Both the position numbers and the translations under genes were made by a program. From a virus, in IMG/VR virus record IMGVR_UViG_3300023180_007455, positions 1-27,457 of that record: a stretch of DNA of 27,457 bases. One strand, 5' to 3'. The notes under the pieces were generated by a model, which saw only the letters and a list, made by a program, of their open reading frames with translations, did not search any database and was not told the DNA's origin. Shown piece after piece: positions 11,422 through 23,047 of this stretch; position 1 is the stretch's first letter; every line of letters starts with the position of its first letter.

Positions 11422-11774
11422 CAGAACTTGTTCATGCTGGATTGATTTGGCTCAATCGTATCATCGTCATCAGGTTCTTCGAGGACCTCTTCCTCTTCTT
11501 CAGATTCAATAAAGAACTCAGAGACCTGGTAGTCAAAGCCCTTCTGATGTGAGTTGAGCTCGTTGCTAATGCATAGAGCACCACAGAAAGACTCCGTCAC
11601 AAGTTCAGCAACAGAGTCGGCATCTCGGACCTTGCCATCAGGAGCGATGCACTCGGTGAGCAGTTGGGTGGAGAGATTGACGGCGATGAGCTTTTCGATT
11701 CGCTTGATCAGCTCCGTGGTCAATTCAATCTGCTGGCGTTGCAGCTTGAGAATCTGATCGAACTTGGCTCCCAT
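11421..11774 (-). CDS. Hypothetical coiled-coil protein with acidic C-terminus, 117 aa
   Basis: Residues 1-30 form a helix with coiled-coil character (FDQILKLQRQQIELTTELIK). The middle contains CIAPDGKVRDADSVAELVTE and a Cys pair (FCGALC). The C-terminus is strongly acidic, with a run of Glu and Asp around residues 90-106. Such tails occur in phage ssDNA-associated or DNA-mimic proteins, but no family is recognised. The ATG at 11774 lies 50 bases inside the upstream gene. A 13-base sequence around this start (GGTAGCTCATGGG) also occurs at the start at 16041, which supports the choice. Confidence 0.65.
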   Translation of the reverse strand: MGAKFDQILKLQRQQIELTTELIKRIEKLIAVNLSTQLLTECIAPDGKVRDADSVAELVTESFCGALCISNELNSHQKGFDYQVSEFFIESEEEEEVLEEPDDDDTIEPNQSSMNKF

Positions 11775-12312
11775 GAGCTACCGCATCCAGGTCAATAAGA
11801 TCGCTCCAATCTAGTGCGTACTCGAGGCTCACACTATCTTGCCACTGATCCTGATGCCTAAAGACAAACCAAGCTGATGTGACGGAGTCTTTCTGGCTGC
11901 CAAGCTGTCGGAAGTTTGGTCGAGGGCTGAAGATGATAAGGTTGCTCATTTTGTAAGCGAGCAGAAAGTCACGTCTTTTTGCGACGGGCTCCAGGAAGGT
12001 CAAGCGCTCGAGCAGACATACGCCTTGCATGGCAATGGCCATCCCATATTTCAGGATGTACTCCGTGTGCTCTTTCAACCCAACGGTCGTCTGCACTATG
12101 TAGTCGTAACCCTGACCTCGTTGTTTTAACCACCAGGTTGGGTCAAGCAAATTGTCGGGATCGCTATTGCTGACCACGGAAACGTTTTGGTTCTTGAGCT
12201 CAGCTTCGAGCCGACCATCTATGTCGTAGGGGATGAAGACCTTGCCATCGAGAAGGACCCTTTTGCTGAGCGCGTGGCCGACGCCCTGCGGTGTTTGATA
12301 GAAGGAAGCCAT
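11725..12312 (-). CDS. Degenerate DNA adenine methyltransferase-like protein
   Basis: This is a protein of 195 residues with the frame of phage N6-adenine methyltransferase-like proteins: SFYQTP at 3-8, LLERLTFLEPVAKRRDFL (100-117), LIIFSPRPNFR (125-135) and KDSVTSAWFVF (141-151). These match the family's usual 'LLRLSFLEP', 'PRPRF' and 'DSVT-AWFVW' blocks. The catalytic parts are lost. Where the SAM-binding 'EPCAGxGA' strand is expected the protein has KVFIPYDIDGRL (24-35). Where NPPF/NPPY is expected it has YDYIVQTTVG (69-78). It is therefore probably not an active methyltransferase; it may bind DNA or a host enzyme. The start region faces the plus-strand nblA-like gene. Confidence 0.65.
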   Translation of the reverse strand: MASFYQTPQGVGHALSKRVLLDGKVFIPYDIDGRLEAELKNQNVSVVSNSDPDNLLDPTWWLKQRGQGYDYIVQTTVGLKEHTEYILKYGMAIAMQGVCLLERLTFLEPVAKRRDFLLAYKMSNLIIFSPRPNFRQLGSQKDSVTSAWFVFRHQDQWQDSVSLEYALDWSDLIDLDAVAHGSQVRSDSQAATPAD

Positions 12313-12367
12313 TGTTTTGTTAAAGAATTGAAAGCGTTGGTGAGGCTAAAGTGTACGGATAACCTGC

Positions 12368-12619
12368 GTGCTCGCTATGGAGATCGCTTGGTTCACGATG
12401 GAGAATGAGTTTGCGCATGCTCGTGTTATGGGCAGCGCCGCAAAACTCGACAAGGCTGAACTGCTCGAAGTCTTCGACATAATCCATAAGCAGTATCAGC
12501 TCAGGGGAAGACTGTTCACGCAGCTTTTGAAGCATTGTGCATCGGCTGGCGTAGAGCTTCCTCCTTTGAACGAGTTGTTAGAACCCAGCACGGCTCAGCA
12601 CCCAGAGGCGAGCGAATAA
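12368..12619 (+). CDS. nblA: NblA-like phycobilisome degradation protein
   Basis: This is a protein of 83 residues from GTG 12368, or 80 from ATG 12377. Residues ~8-60 align without gaps to cyanobacterial NblA as I remember it. FTMENEF matches LSLEQQF at the start of helix 1. The second helix LLEVFDIIHKQYQLRGRLFT matches the NblA helix ending in R-x3-Y. It finishes with LLKH, the same residues as NblA's LLKH, which includes the Leu and Lys reported to bind phycobiliprotein. NblA forms dimers that recruit phycobilisomes to Clp protease. It is the only plus-strand gene between 5730 and 25410, and its last 104 bases overlap the convergent minus gene. The C-terminal extension (VELPPLNELLEPS...) is unusual for NblA. 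Confidence 0.68.
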   Translation: MLAMEIAWFTMENEFAHARVMGSAAKLDKAELLEVFDIIHKQYQLRGRLFTQLLKHCASAGVELPPLNELLEPSTAQHPEASE

Positions 12620-12956
12620 ACCCAATACGTTCGATGTACCGGGAGATCACCTCGACGCTGGTCGACTGTGGTCTTGCAAAGATAACAGCGTTTTCAGGGA
12701 GCTCAAGGATCAAGCTTTTAAACAAAGACATTGCTTTATAGACTGTTGTAGACGGTGCGCCTGTGTGCGGAACATTGGTCTTACGAGACCGCTTGTTCTT
12801 ACGGTTCTCGATCCAGTCGCATGATGCACGCTTGGACTTGGTGATGCACACCGCTCCTTCCCAGTAGTCAGAGCGCGTGGGGATGAAGCGGTAGACCCAG
12901 ACGCTGATCCAGAAGCCTTTGTGCTTGATTCTTTTGACGCGAGTATTTTTCCGCAT
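12516..12956 (-). CDS. Hypothetical basic protein, 146 aa
   Basis: The start is ATG at 12956; the open frame extends upstream to 13295 but that part is antisense-quality sequence crossing a terminator and another gene. The N-terminal half is very basic and aromatic (RKNTRVKRIKHKGFWISVWV, ENRKNKRSRKTN). The second half has LFKSLILELPENAVIFARPQ, then VISRYIERIGFIRS and PCWVLTT. The 'P-x...RYIERIGF...PCWVL' run is reminiscent of the C-terminal part of GNAT acetyltransferases, but evidence is too thin to name it. The ATG lies directly after the U-run of a strong terminator, so expression may depend on read-through. The 3' end overlaps the nblA-like gene. Confidence 0.6.
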   Translation of the reverse strand: MRKNTRVKRIKHKGFWISVWVYRFIPTRSDYWEGAVCITKSKRASCDWIENRKNKRSRKTNVPHTGAPSTTVYKAMSLFKSLILELPENAVIFARPQSTSVEVISRYIERIGFIRSPLGAEPCWVLTTRSKEEALRQPMHNASKAA

Positions 12957-12987
12957 AAAAAAAGGGGCCGCAACGGTGACGGCCCCT
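12957..12987 (-). terminator. Strong intrinsic terminator directly before a start codon
   Basis: Read on the minus strand: AGGGGCCG (12987-12980), a 9-base loop, CGGCCCCT (12970-12963), then a run of seven T including the last stem base (12963-12957). The stem is a perfect 8 bp and GC-rich. It ends the transcript of the gene at 13001-13819. The ATG of the next gene (12956) starts immediately after the T-run. Confidence 0.9.
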
Positions 12988-13000
12988 GAGACATTCCACG

Positions 13001-13819
13001 TCAGAAGTCTATCCCAAGTTTCTTGGCTTGCTCTGGCGTTAGCTCTACAGCTTTCTTCTTTTTGCTGTCGGCAGCGGGAGGAGCGGTAGTCTCCACCACT
13101 TCGACTTTGGCGTTCAGCGGATTGGCATCCGCAGGAAGCGCTGCAAGGCTCGGCGCAGGGAGGGCATTGTTTGCCTCGAAGGCCGCCTTGATCTGAGCGT
13201 GGTCCTCTCCAAGGGGTAGTTCCACAAGGTTGGATCCTGGGATGCTCGAGCGAAGAGCGTTGGCCACCGACGACGCTCCGCTGGACTGAAGCCACTCATT
13301 GATGTCCGCAATGAGTTTCTTCTCTTCGTCTGATTCAGCTGGTCGATCGCTGAACTCAACCGCGTTGTAATTGATCTTTGCGCCGTCCGCGCCAGTGACC
13401 GGATCCCGCTCATTGAAGGACTTGGTAACGAACTTAGTGGTAGTGATGACAGAAGCACAGTTGATTCTGTTGTTGTACAGCGTCTGGAAGTAGCTGATGA
13501 ACCCCTTCTGAGAGGTCTTACCACTGATTATCGTCGAAGTGACGCAGCGAGGCGGGAGGAGCCTGTGGTTGGGTGAGACGCCGATGTAAGCAATACGGAT
13601 GAATTCCTCTCCATGACGCATACCGAGGTTTCCGTAGAAAGGAGTGAAACCAAGGAGAACAAAGTTAAGAGGAATGCCGTTGCCATTAGCGTCGACGATT
13701 GCGGATTCAGAGTCGACATCAGACTTCCAGCGGCGTTGCTGAAGGTCGATGCGCAGAGTGTGGGGAGGGCAGTTGCAGAGGATTTCGTCCTCTTCAAATT
13801 GGCCAGCGATAAAAACCAT
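13001..13819 (-). CDS. Hypothetical protein next to SSB, 272 aa
   Basis: I do not recognise the family. The N-terminal ~170 residues look like a compact mixed fold (MVFIAGQFEEDEILCNCPPH, PLNFVLLGFTPFYGNLGMRH, RIAYIGVSPNHRLLPPRCVT, FISYFQTLYNNRINCASVIT). After about residue 200 comes a disordered Ala/Pro-rich part, then a Lys run (DSKKKKAVELTPEQ) and the end KKLGIDF. The short C-terminal IDF after a disordered tail resembles SSB-type interaction tips. It lies 20 bases downstream of the SSB-like gene and is probably co-transcribed with it, so a role with single-stranded DNA or replication is plausible but inferred. A strong terminator follows. Confidence 0.65.
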   Translation of the reverse strand: MVFIAGQFEEDEILCNCPPHTLRIDLQQRRWKSDVDSESAIVDANGNGIPLNFVLLGFTPFYGNLGMRHGEEFIRIAYIGVSPNHRLLPPRCVTSTIISGKTSQKGFISYFQTLYNNRINCASVITTTKFVTKSFNERDPVTGADGAKINYNAVEFSDRPAESDEEKKLIADINEWLQSSGASSVANALRSSIPGSNLVELPLGEDHAQIKAAFEANNALPAPSLAALPADANPLNAKVEVVETTAPPAADSKKKKAVELTPEQAKKLGIDF

Positions 13820-20315: not shown

Positions 20316-21863
20316 TCACCTTATGCAACGCTGAATGCAATCAATGCTCTCAGCTGTCTTGGTCAAGTCCACAGTGTGGACTTCGTCGCTGAACCGATTC
20401 AGAATTGGACCTGCGTCGGTCTCAATGCAGATCGTCGACCACATCGCACCGGTTCTTTCTTTCATCGCGTTGATGTTCCTGATCGTGTGATCGTGCACTT
20501 CACTGTGCCCGTCCGTGATCATCAGAATGTCGGTCTTGTCGGTGATCTTGGCCGAGGTGACTGCGTGCGCCAGTACAGCGTTGAAAGACGTACCACCTCC
20601 GAGGTGCCACGTAGCCACAAAGTCCAGCAACTCATTGTTGTCAGCCCGCGTGGCATCCAAGCTCACTGAATCCGTAATCCGAACGTCAAACAAATGAATC
20701 TGCACACCTCGCTTCTGCTTCAAGGCCTCCTCAGCAATGAGAAGTGCAATCGCTTTGCTCCAGATTTCAGTCTCGCCCGTCATCGAGCCGGAGACATCGA
20801 TGTACATGACGATCGGTCCCTTACCGAGATCCTTTCGATGCGCCTCGTAGTCTTTGGTCAGCAGGCTTCTCTGGCTGTACTTCAGGGCGAAGAGAGCGCG
20901 TCCCTGAGGCGTGGCAGCTAACGCCAGCTCATTGGGGAAAGCTTTCACCACTTCATTACTAAAGGCAGCGCCTGCAATTGCTTCGTAGCTGGCCTTTGCT
21001 CGGCGAGCTTTCTTTCGCTCTGTCCAGATCCGCCGCAAGAAACCAAGACGGTTGGCGATTGCCCTCAGCTTCTTGTTTTGGCGAAGGCGTTTTGCCAACT
21101 CACGTTTCTGATTGAGATCGTTTGTGTGCTTGCCTGTCCCAGCATCAGAGCCGTGAAGCTTGCTGATCCCTTCGTTAGTTTGCTCGGTTTCTTCCTTGGC
21201 TTTGTCGACGATCTCATCTACACGGCTGGAGATCCTTTCACCAGCTTCCATGAGGTGCTGCTCCATGACAGCGCCAAGCTTCTTGCCCTCTTCTCGCAGC
21301 ACTGCTGCAGCGCCGTCATCACCAGCGTCCTTCGCTTCTTGAAACTCCTGACGGATCTTTTCCAGCTTGTCTTTGTTGCTGCTGAGCATCGAGGGTGCCA
21401 GCTGCTCCAGGTCCTCGATCAATTCCTCAAGAACCTCGGACAGCTCGTTCAGGATGTTTACAGCAGTGTTTCCAGCGTTCCACTGATCGCCGACGCAAAG
21501 CATCATCAAGTCGTGCCACGCTGCTGAATTGGTCAGGTCGTCCATCAGCCCGTACCAGAACGAGTCTTCAGGTTTGTAGCCGCGTGGATACACAACCTTT
21601 TCCCCGTTCTGTTTTGCTCTGAAATACTCTTCCCAAGCATTCAGATCGATAAGCCAGCTGACGTTGTCGCCTGAGTAAAGACGCTCGAAAACTTCTTTCC
21701 CAAAGCGTGACAACTGGTTGATGTTGTACTGATCGGCTAGGTAGCTGACCTGGGGCCTTGCGTCTCGAACAAAGTCGTCCCAAAGAAAATCTGCAAGTGC
21801 AGAGCAAGCCAGCGTCAAAGGCTGGTTGTCACTCAGCCTCAGGATCTCCTGTCGTTTGTCCAT
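20316..21863 (-). CDS. VWA-domain protein, ViaA/CobT-like
   Basis: This is a protein of 515 residues. The N-terminal ~300 are helical, with an acidic Asn/Leu/Glu-rich coiled-coil region (LNELSEVLEELIEDLEQL, KLEKIRQEFQEAKDAG) and a basic segment (RLRQNKKLRAIANRLGFLRR). The C-terminal VWA domain has an intact MIDAS: YIDVSGSMTG (D356, S358, S360), GGGTSFNAVL (T425) and LMITDGHSE (D451). Its start overlaps the stop of the MoxR-like ATPase by one base. AAA+ ATPase plus VWA protein is the layout of RavA-ViaA, MoxR-VWA and CobS-CobT pairs, in which the VWA partner presents the target to the ATPase ring. The target here is unknown. Confidence 0.85.
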   Translation of the reverse strand: MDKRQEILRLSDNQPLTLACSALADFLWDDFVRDARPQVSYLADQYNINQLSRFGKEVFERLYSGDNVSWLIDLNAWEEYFRAKQNGEKVVYPRGYKPEDSFWYGLMDDLTNSAAWHDLMMLCVGDQWNAGNTAVNILNELSEVLEELIEDLEQLAPSMLSSNKDKLEKIRQEFQEAKDAGDDGAAAVLREEGKKLGAVMEQHLMEAGERISSRVDEIVDKAKEETEQTNEGISKLHGSDAGTGKHTNDLNQKRELAKRLRQNKKLRAIANRLGFLRRIWTERKKARRAKASYEAIAGAAFSNEVVKAFPNELALAATPQGRALFALKYSQRSLLTKDYEAHRKDLGKGPIVMYIDVSGSMTGETEIWSKAIALLIAEEALKQKRGVQIHLFDVRITDSVSLDATRADNNELLDFVATWHLGGGTSFNAVLAHAVTSAKITDKTDILMITDGHSEVHDHTIRNINAMKERTGAMWSTICIETDAGPILNRFSDEVHTVDLTKTAESIDCIQRCIR

Positions 21864-23047
21864 TAGTTTGAGATTTCGGCGATTGTGTGGGCGATTGTTT
21901 CGCTGAACTTTTCGAGCTGCCTGTTTAGCTGCACGCCTTTTTGTCGGACTGCGATTGACATCTTGTAACGGTCGCCATCCAGTGCATCATTGACCTTCTT
22001 CTGGATGCTCAAGATGTCATTGCGAGCACGGCGACACTGGGTGACGTAGTCGTTCAGGTCAGCCAGGGAGCGACCGCTGAGCTTTGTTGCGTTGGCCTGG
22101 AACTCAGTCATGATTCCAGAGGCAGCCCGCTTTGCATCGGCAAAGTATTTTTCAGCCGTGGGGCATACCTGCATCAAGCACTCTTTAATAGTGGCTTGAT
22201 CTTCGTCGTTACGGTAAACAATGTGCACCAGTGAGTTGTGCATGTGTTCGCCATAGAGTTCTTCGTCGCCTTGGACAACTGCCCAAGCTTTGAGGAACTT
22301 GATGATCTGAACTCGCCGGCGGTCACTGATAGTCAGGCCTCGTGCTTCGAGCATTGACCAGAGCTCGCCGAACTTATCCAGAAAGTCATCGGTGACAGGC
22401 AGCGTTGCTGCTTTTGCCTGCAGCTCGAACAGATCGCCAAGCTTTAAGTGCACACCGACGTCGGGTCTTTGCTGGATGCCTGCAGCCCAGAGATCAAGCG
22501 TGCGCTTACTGGCGCTCATCGCCAGGAACCGAACAGTTGGGCGGAACAGGAAACGATCGGCGAAAGCTTGGAGTGATTCCTCCTCAGGCCAGCTGTTTGT
22601 GGCAGCGACGATCGACTGGATCGGCGTCTCGATTGTTTCCTTGCCGTTGTTGAACGTGCGCTCGTTCAGAAGGGTGAGCAGTGAGTTCAGGATCGCGGAA
22701 GAGCCACGAAACAGTTCGTCAGTGAACGCGATGTGCGCAGAGGGAAGGTAGCCATCGACGTCACGTTGGTACTCGTCCTTGAGGAGCTTCGTGACAGCTA
22801 CAGGACCGAAGAGTTCGCTTGGGTCGCTGGTTGGCGTGAGGAGGTAGCCGAAGTAGTTGGCGCCGTCGATGCCCTTGCAAATGCTTCGGACCAGATCTGA
22901 CTTACCAGTGCCGGGCTCGCCCAGTAGGAAAGCGTTCTGCTTTGAGAGCAGCGTGGCAAGCAGGCCGTCGATAACATCGACGCGCTCGAGGTGCGCAGTG
23001 TTGAGGGCAGCTCGGAAGTTCTGAAGTGATTTGAAAAGATCAGTCAT
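21863..23047 (-). CDS. MoxR/RavA-type AAA+ ATPase
   Basis: This is a protein of 394 residues. Motifs: Walker A GEPGTGKS (43-50), TSDPSELFGPV (73-83, a MoxR-type feature), Walker B IAFTDELFRG (106-115), LLTLLNERTF (124-132), sensor 1 IVAATNSWPEE (146-156) and the Arg-finger region FADRFLFR (162-169). The C-terminal ~150 residues are helical (HNSLVHIVYRNDEDQATIKE; RSLADLNDYVTQCRRARNDI). Enzymes of this class form hexameric rings and remodel or activate a client with the VWA partner. It is encoded directly before the VWA gene (TAATG overlap) and after two coiled-coil genes, all under one promoter. A CobS-like annotation is also possible. Confidence 0.9.
   Translation of the reverse strand: MTDLFKSLQNFRAALNTAHLERVDVIDGLLATLLSKQNAFLLGEPGTGKSDLVRSICKGIDGANYFGYLLTPTSDPSELFGPVAVTKLLKDEYQRDVDGYLPSAHIAFTDELFRGSSAILNSLLTLLNERTFNNGKETIETPIQSIVAATNSWPEEESLQAFADRFLFRPTVRFLAMSASKRTLDLWAAGIQQRPDVGVHLKLGDLFELQAKAATLPVTDDFLDKFGELWSMLEARGLTISDRRRVQIIKFLKAWAVVQGDEELYGEHMHNSLVHIVYRNDEDQATIKECLMQVCPTAEKYFADAKRAASGIMTEFQANATKLSGRSLADLNDYVTQCRRARNDILSIQKKVNDALDGDRYKMSIAVRQKGVQLNRQLEKFSETIAHTIAEISN

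Follow-up and report, generated by a model that had tools for sequence, protein, structure and literature searches.

The window analysed here, the 27,457 bases that make up positions 1-27,457 of the uncultured virus record IMGVR_UViG_3300023180_007455 (IMG/VR), encodes a small protein that profile comparisons place in the NblA superfamily as a strongly diverged member carried by a phage, with homology over the whole NblA domain. Its probable role is that of an NblA adaptor through which phycobiliprotein reaches the host Clp machinery, in an uncultured lineage related to the phage S-EIV1. The gene and its surroundings in the window are:

12377-12619, plus strand, stop included: NblA-like gene, ATG start, 80 aa (MEIAWFTMENEFAHARVMGSAAKLDKAELLEVFDIIHKQYQLRGRLFTQLLKHCASAGVELPPLNELLEPSTAQHPEASE), with the NblA domain at about residues 6-55 and a conserved C-terminal extension at 54-76
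12347-12352, plus strand: -10-like element TAAAGT, placed 24 nt upstream of the start codon
12313-12376: 64 nt of divergent intergenic DNA that separate the NblA-like gene from the gene at 11725-12312 on the minus strand
11725-12312, minus strand: divergently oriented gene for 195 aa that weakly matches phrog_799, a family of phage DNA methyltransferases (E 5.9e-7)
12516-12956, minus strand: convergent gene, ~146 aa, overlapping the 3' end of the NblA-like gene by ~104 nt
12957-12990, minus strand: terminator-like hairpin followed by a T run on the minus strand, after the 272-aa gene (read by eye from the sequence)
13001-13819, minus strand: conserved 272-aa neighbour, used as the synteny anchor (385 IMG/VR relatives, best 80 retained)

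The homology to NblA stated in the original prediction stands at the level of the family, and not for the window sequence alone. That single protein has no match in Pfam, PHROGs, the PDB or phage tblastn and falls under every library threshold, which, after the family search, we take as insensitivity of direct search. When 35 family members (alignment A3) are compared with NblA profile to profile, the match has a probability of 95.9% (P 6.3e-9) over 49 ungapped columns. When the family is scanned blind against 24,736 Pfam models, NblA leads, with 26 of the 35 A3 members and a best E of 1.3e-5; the runner-up by frequency is a family with a best E of 0.0029. The Pfam NblA model, which the window protein by itself fails to reach, is reached by orthologues: one member, L208, exceeds the cut-off with 25.6 bits against 25 (25.4 in a six-frame search). 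Searched against all PDB sequences, the A3 profile ranks the NblA structure 3cs5 first (E 0.0019) and also finds 1ojh (E 0.57). The gapless alignment claimed at the outset is reproduced, with window residues 7-52 aligning ungapped to a profile of 40 NblA sequences (HMMER score 13.8) and residues 6-55 aligning when a three-sequence profile is compared with NblA in hhalign (probability 88%, P 2.9e-6).

The reverse search, with the A1 profile against 386 cyanobacterial genomes, gives about 150 weak matches, four of which fall, in the same register, on genes that the Pfam NblA model PF04485 marks independently; by our own rough count, fewer than 0.01 such coincidences are expected. The genome scans with the A1 profile contain no close cellular relative, and the A3 scan, whose other matches are long and unrelated proteins, picks up a single tandem nblA gene (G036, E 0.0015). 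Two sequences of cyanobacterial genome G202, L172 and L179, represent an unusual NblA type (FEKQFSHAMFCQQ..LHLLYLGQQAMF) that lies below or near the Pfam cut-off; a scan for forms intermediate with L172 gave none.

The AlphaFold model built from A3 has helices at residues 8-22 and 26-56, with a mean pLDDT of 80 that rises to ~90 over residues 11-50. The predicted layout is the NblA-type hairpin of a short helix 1 and a long helix 2, the fold that the original prediction implied. A model built on just three sequences had been of low quality, at a pLDDT of 55. Foldseek and VIA-align matched no NblA structure in the PDB, a result that says little for an 80-residue hairpin.

Within the block at ~6.1-24.6 kb, which contains primase, exonuclease, HNH nuclease and family A DNA polymerase genes on the minus strand, the NblA-like gene is the lone plus-strand gene. 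Its solitary orientation, as originally described, is correct inside that block; genes at ~0.03-5.7 kb of the window also use the plus strand. The 272-aa neighbour, which has no Pfam, PHROG or isolate-phage match, is a marker gene for the uncultured lineage. Among the best 80 of its 385 relatives, 77 loci have an opposite-strand homologue of the NblA-like gene beside it, and the remaining three end 456, 88 and 22 nt past the 272-aa gene and are too short, so that all 77 testable loci are positive. The opposite-strand NblA-like gene is a fixed feature of a widespread phage lineage. Of 24 syntenic loci, 23 have a TANNNT sequence at a distance of 18-32 nt from the ATG on its upstream side, a count reached by 0 of 500 shuffles, the loci being related rather than independent. 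This -10-like element is consistent with a promoter of the gene's own, and together with the fixed orientation it fits the earlier suggestion that the gene is expressed on its own schedule.

Two other features of the block deserve mention. The convergent gene at 12516-12956 is small and conserved (motif NKSKRA.NDW, terminus ..WVLTA); it is found in the window clade and several other clades and is absent in others (L220, L246, L202). Positions 20316-23047 (minus strand) encode a VWA-domain protein and an adjoining MoxR-type AAA ATPase, a chaperone-like pair, and the nearest isolate matches of the ATPase are in Moorella and Aphanizomenon phages (32-34%).

Full-length relatives connect the lineage to S-EIV1, a cultured phage whose host is Synechococcus. 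When 50,697 phage records are searched with the virion protein of an 86-kb relative (G397), S-EIV1 alone matches (46% identity, E 1e-165), and across full-length relatives identity to S-EIV1 is 52-57% for TerL (G397, G398) and 42-46% for the virion protein. The window gives modest matches to S-EIV1 (ThyX 44%, primase 28%), and its 27 kb hold no terminase or virion gene in common with that phage. A Kyanoviridae Gp96 family and an AdoMet decarboxylase are found in the lineage. Because the lineage is related to a Synechococcus phage, a cyanobacterial host is likely for the window phage; none of 12 relatives carries the host markers psbA or psbD. Identity or close kinship of the window phage with S-EIV1 was rejected, as neither the neighbour gene nor the polymerase is close. 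Among isolates nothing is closely related to the DNA polymerase, its best matches being Pseudanabaena phages at 28%.

The longer genomes of the lineage carry more than one such gene. A second, different NblA-like gene is present in 7 of 7 checked relatives of 56-86 kb, and S-EIV1 has a candidate counterpart:

L275, 5881-6132, plus strand: second NblA-like gene (GLTLEDEF..RERAYKTVM..), also in L280 and L284-L288, below the Pfam cut-off
S-EIV1, 73902-74222 (L289, 28903-29223): AHV82245.1, annotated 'hypothetical protein', with Pfam NblA as sole match (E 0.014, below the cut-off)

The consensus of the second gene is CGLTLEDEF..TRIR..AH.L..K.RD..LW..V.KLICRERAYKTVM.EVG...DTN..LFDDE, and for the three copies tested NblA is the sole Pfam match, at E 0.009-0.06, under the Pfam cut-off. 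PF04485 finds this frame in G395, G396, G397, G400 and G401; in G398 and G399 the second-type frame is the sole PF04485 match, yet the first-type gene also exists. AHV82245 and the second gene of the relatives have a common gene just upstream, and AHV82245 is likely the S-EIV1 counterpart of that second gene. Another S-EIV1 protein, AHV82171, encoded on the plus strand in a similar placement, was also checked and has no NblA match. It is a tentative, and to us rather doubtful, idea that each genome of the lineage encodes two different NblA-like proteins, one from the replication block, where its gene runs against its neighbours, and one from the opposite genome half, and that the two form a heterodimeric, partly retargeted Clp adaptor in which the extension chooses the substrate.

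If the window protein acts as an NblA adaptor, it would be made early, from a promoter of its own, and would dimerise as NblA does, into a four-helix bundle, perhaps with the second NblA-like protein of the relatives. Its N-terminal E-Q-x-F helix would bind host ClpC, and a phycobiliprotein would be bound by the last part of helix 2 together with the C-terminal extension, so that antenna protein would be sent to Clp proteolysis. The original prediction that the phage dismantles the host antenna is one that we also infer, and such breakdown may supply amino acids and limit photodamage in infection. NblA is a ClpC adaptor (PMC7966870) and works as a dimer, Synechocystis requiring an NblA1/NblA2 heterodimer, according to work cited there as reference 38. 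The N-terminal motif of NblA is described as the ClpC-binding side and the C-terminal part as the antenna-binding side, and phage nblA is expressed early (PMC4103541). Heterologous expression of phage NblA leads to bleaching, and where phage NblAs have been characterised it is the phycobilisome that they act on (PMC9602691).

The residues conserved in the family bear on both ends of the proposed adaptor. Invariant in A3 are W5, E9, F12, H14, K23, L46, F47, C54, L61, P62 and L67 (NblA numbering: window +1), and W5, H14, K23, C54, L61, P62 and L67 are residues that NblA lacks. In the N-terminal motif, L-S-L-E-Q-x-F in NblA, E9 and F12 are invariant and Q10 is present in 91% of the family; the window clade has N at position 10, and the window motif reads M-E-N-E-F. 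The Leu preceding E-Q-x-F, invariant in NblA, is Leu in only 46% of the family, and Trp5 is new. E9, Q10 and F12 correspond to the ClpC side and L50 to the antenna side, and the Leu and Lys of the C-terminal LLKH of NblA, equivalent to L50 and K52 in the window, are reported to contact phycobiliprotein. The original prediction included LLKH in its NblA alignment. The window has L50 and K52, but across the family the Leu is kept in 97%, the Lys in 29% and the His in 20%, so that LLKH is a feature of the window clade, not a family signature. The extension noticed beyond LLKH is real: residues 54-76 are conserved and are missing from NblA. Conservation merely through antisense overlap was rejected as an explanation, since the extension is also conserved in loci without the overlapping minus-strand gene.

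Because the antenna-contact Lys is unconserved and new invariant residues have appeared, the binding partners may differ from those of NblA. An NblA fold could still deliver to ClpC while serving a substrate in place of, or in addition to, phycobiliprotein, with the extension and the family-specific residues binding some other host protein. The scarcity of the Lys, the invariant residues absent from NblA (W5, H14, K23, C54, L61-P62, L67) and the extension's independence of the antisense gene speak for such retargeting. However, the E-Q-x-F motif and the Leu at the end of helix 2 are retained, the window clade keeps LLKH, and phycobilisomes are the target of characterised phage NblAs (PMC9602691); we consider a changed substrate unlikely. 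The protein might also act as a decoy or inhibitor, forming pairs with the NblA of the host or taking up ClpC without delivery, and so protect the antenna or block Clp. The contact residues have diverged, and a diverged partner could poison a dimer, as the Synechocystis NblA1/NblA2 heterodimer (cited in PMC7966870) would allow, but the phage NblAs tested cause degradation rather than protection (PMC9602691), and we judge this role improbable.

A further alternative is a small helical protein with no relation to NblA, likened to it by its composition and the periodicity of its helices, a reading that is largely refuted already and that we hold to be very improbable. It would agree with the failure of the window protein to pass any library threshold, and with shuffles of two relatives, L003 and L006, that reach those proteins' own HMMER scores 5 and 2 times in ~18,000. 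Against it, NblA comes first when the family is scanned blind against Pfam and the PDB, and the four reverse matches are in register. The window protein's score of 13.8 is reached by 0 of ~18,000 of its own shuffles, and the hhalign probability of 88% by 0 of 1500 column shuffles (best shuffle 55.7%).

The frame itself, put at 80-83 aa in the original prediction, is open at 12368-12619 (plus strand). An ATG at 12377 is more likely the true start than the GTG at 12368, because the upstream GTG is unconserved whereas an ATG is conserved. Indels are absent across the six closest IMG/VR relatives (75-100% identity), and two distinct comparisons among them give substitutions at codon positions 1/2/3 of 16/10/33 and 19/10/39. 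Since third-position changes dominate and the plus frame at 12377-12619 is the only one that is stop-free throughout 14 of 14 syntenic loci, these patterns identify the NblA-like frame as a genuine coding gene. A chance frame, antisense to a real gene on the minus strand, would fit the conserved minus-strand gene that overlaps the 3' end by ~104 nt in the window clade, but is refuted, with a negligible residual probability, by minus frames that contain stops in nearly every relative where the plus frame has none, and by the predominance of third-position changes.

Taken as an NblA branch, the family extends a gene that, in phages, was previously known from few groups, both freshwater and marine. 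A fixed gene in all testable loci and a second in 7 of 7 long relatives suggest that antenna control is a core strategy of this lineage, which may have gone unseen because most of the proteins score under the Pfam threshold. The S-EIV1 group table of a marine viral genome survey has hli and ptoX, not nblA (PMC5332604), and in the part of the literature consulted there is no description of this NblA branch, of its extension or of two such genes together. With an extension conserved separately, the re-aiming of a Clp adaptor by phages becomes testable, and the NblA-like gene of S-EIV1 offers an experimental entry because that phage is cultured.

Compared with known NblA (PF04485; 1ojh, 3cs5, 2q8v), the family has the same length class, ~49 ungapped residues, the E-Q-x-F motif, a short helix 1 and a long helix 2 with a Leu near its end, at ~16% identity over aligned columns. 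It differs in an invariant Trp before helix 1 and a His in helix 1, in a helix 2 that usually ends '..WC' as opposed to 'LKH', and in a conserved C-terminal extension of ~25 residues. The NblAs of Ma-LMM01 and PaV-LD are likewise phage-encoded, and Ma-LMM01 nblA is early and lies in a replication gene region (PMC4103541); however, they are typical NblAs that Pfam detects directly (E 1.9e-14 and 1.2e-12), from unrelated phage lineages. S-EIV1 AHV82245.1 belongs to a cultured phage of a related lineage and has NblA as its sole Pfam match (E 0.014), but by position it corresponds to the relatives' second gene and not to that of the window. Marine and estuarine cyanophage NblAs (S-SCSM1 QFG06501, S-TIM5, cyanopodoviruses) are, like the family, diverged, and distant marine forms were found via HHpred (PMC9602691). 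The Pfam NblA model misses diverged phage NblAs, as is seen with the annotated S-SCSM1 NblA (QFG06501.1, L189:8952-9116), which HHpred recognises (PMC9602691) but which escapes the model at E<=1. Unlike the window protein, the S-SCSM1 protein is 54 aa long and has no extension, and the two show no direct similarity. Phage NblA is already known, and the window family is a new, diverged branch of it.
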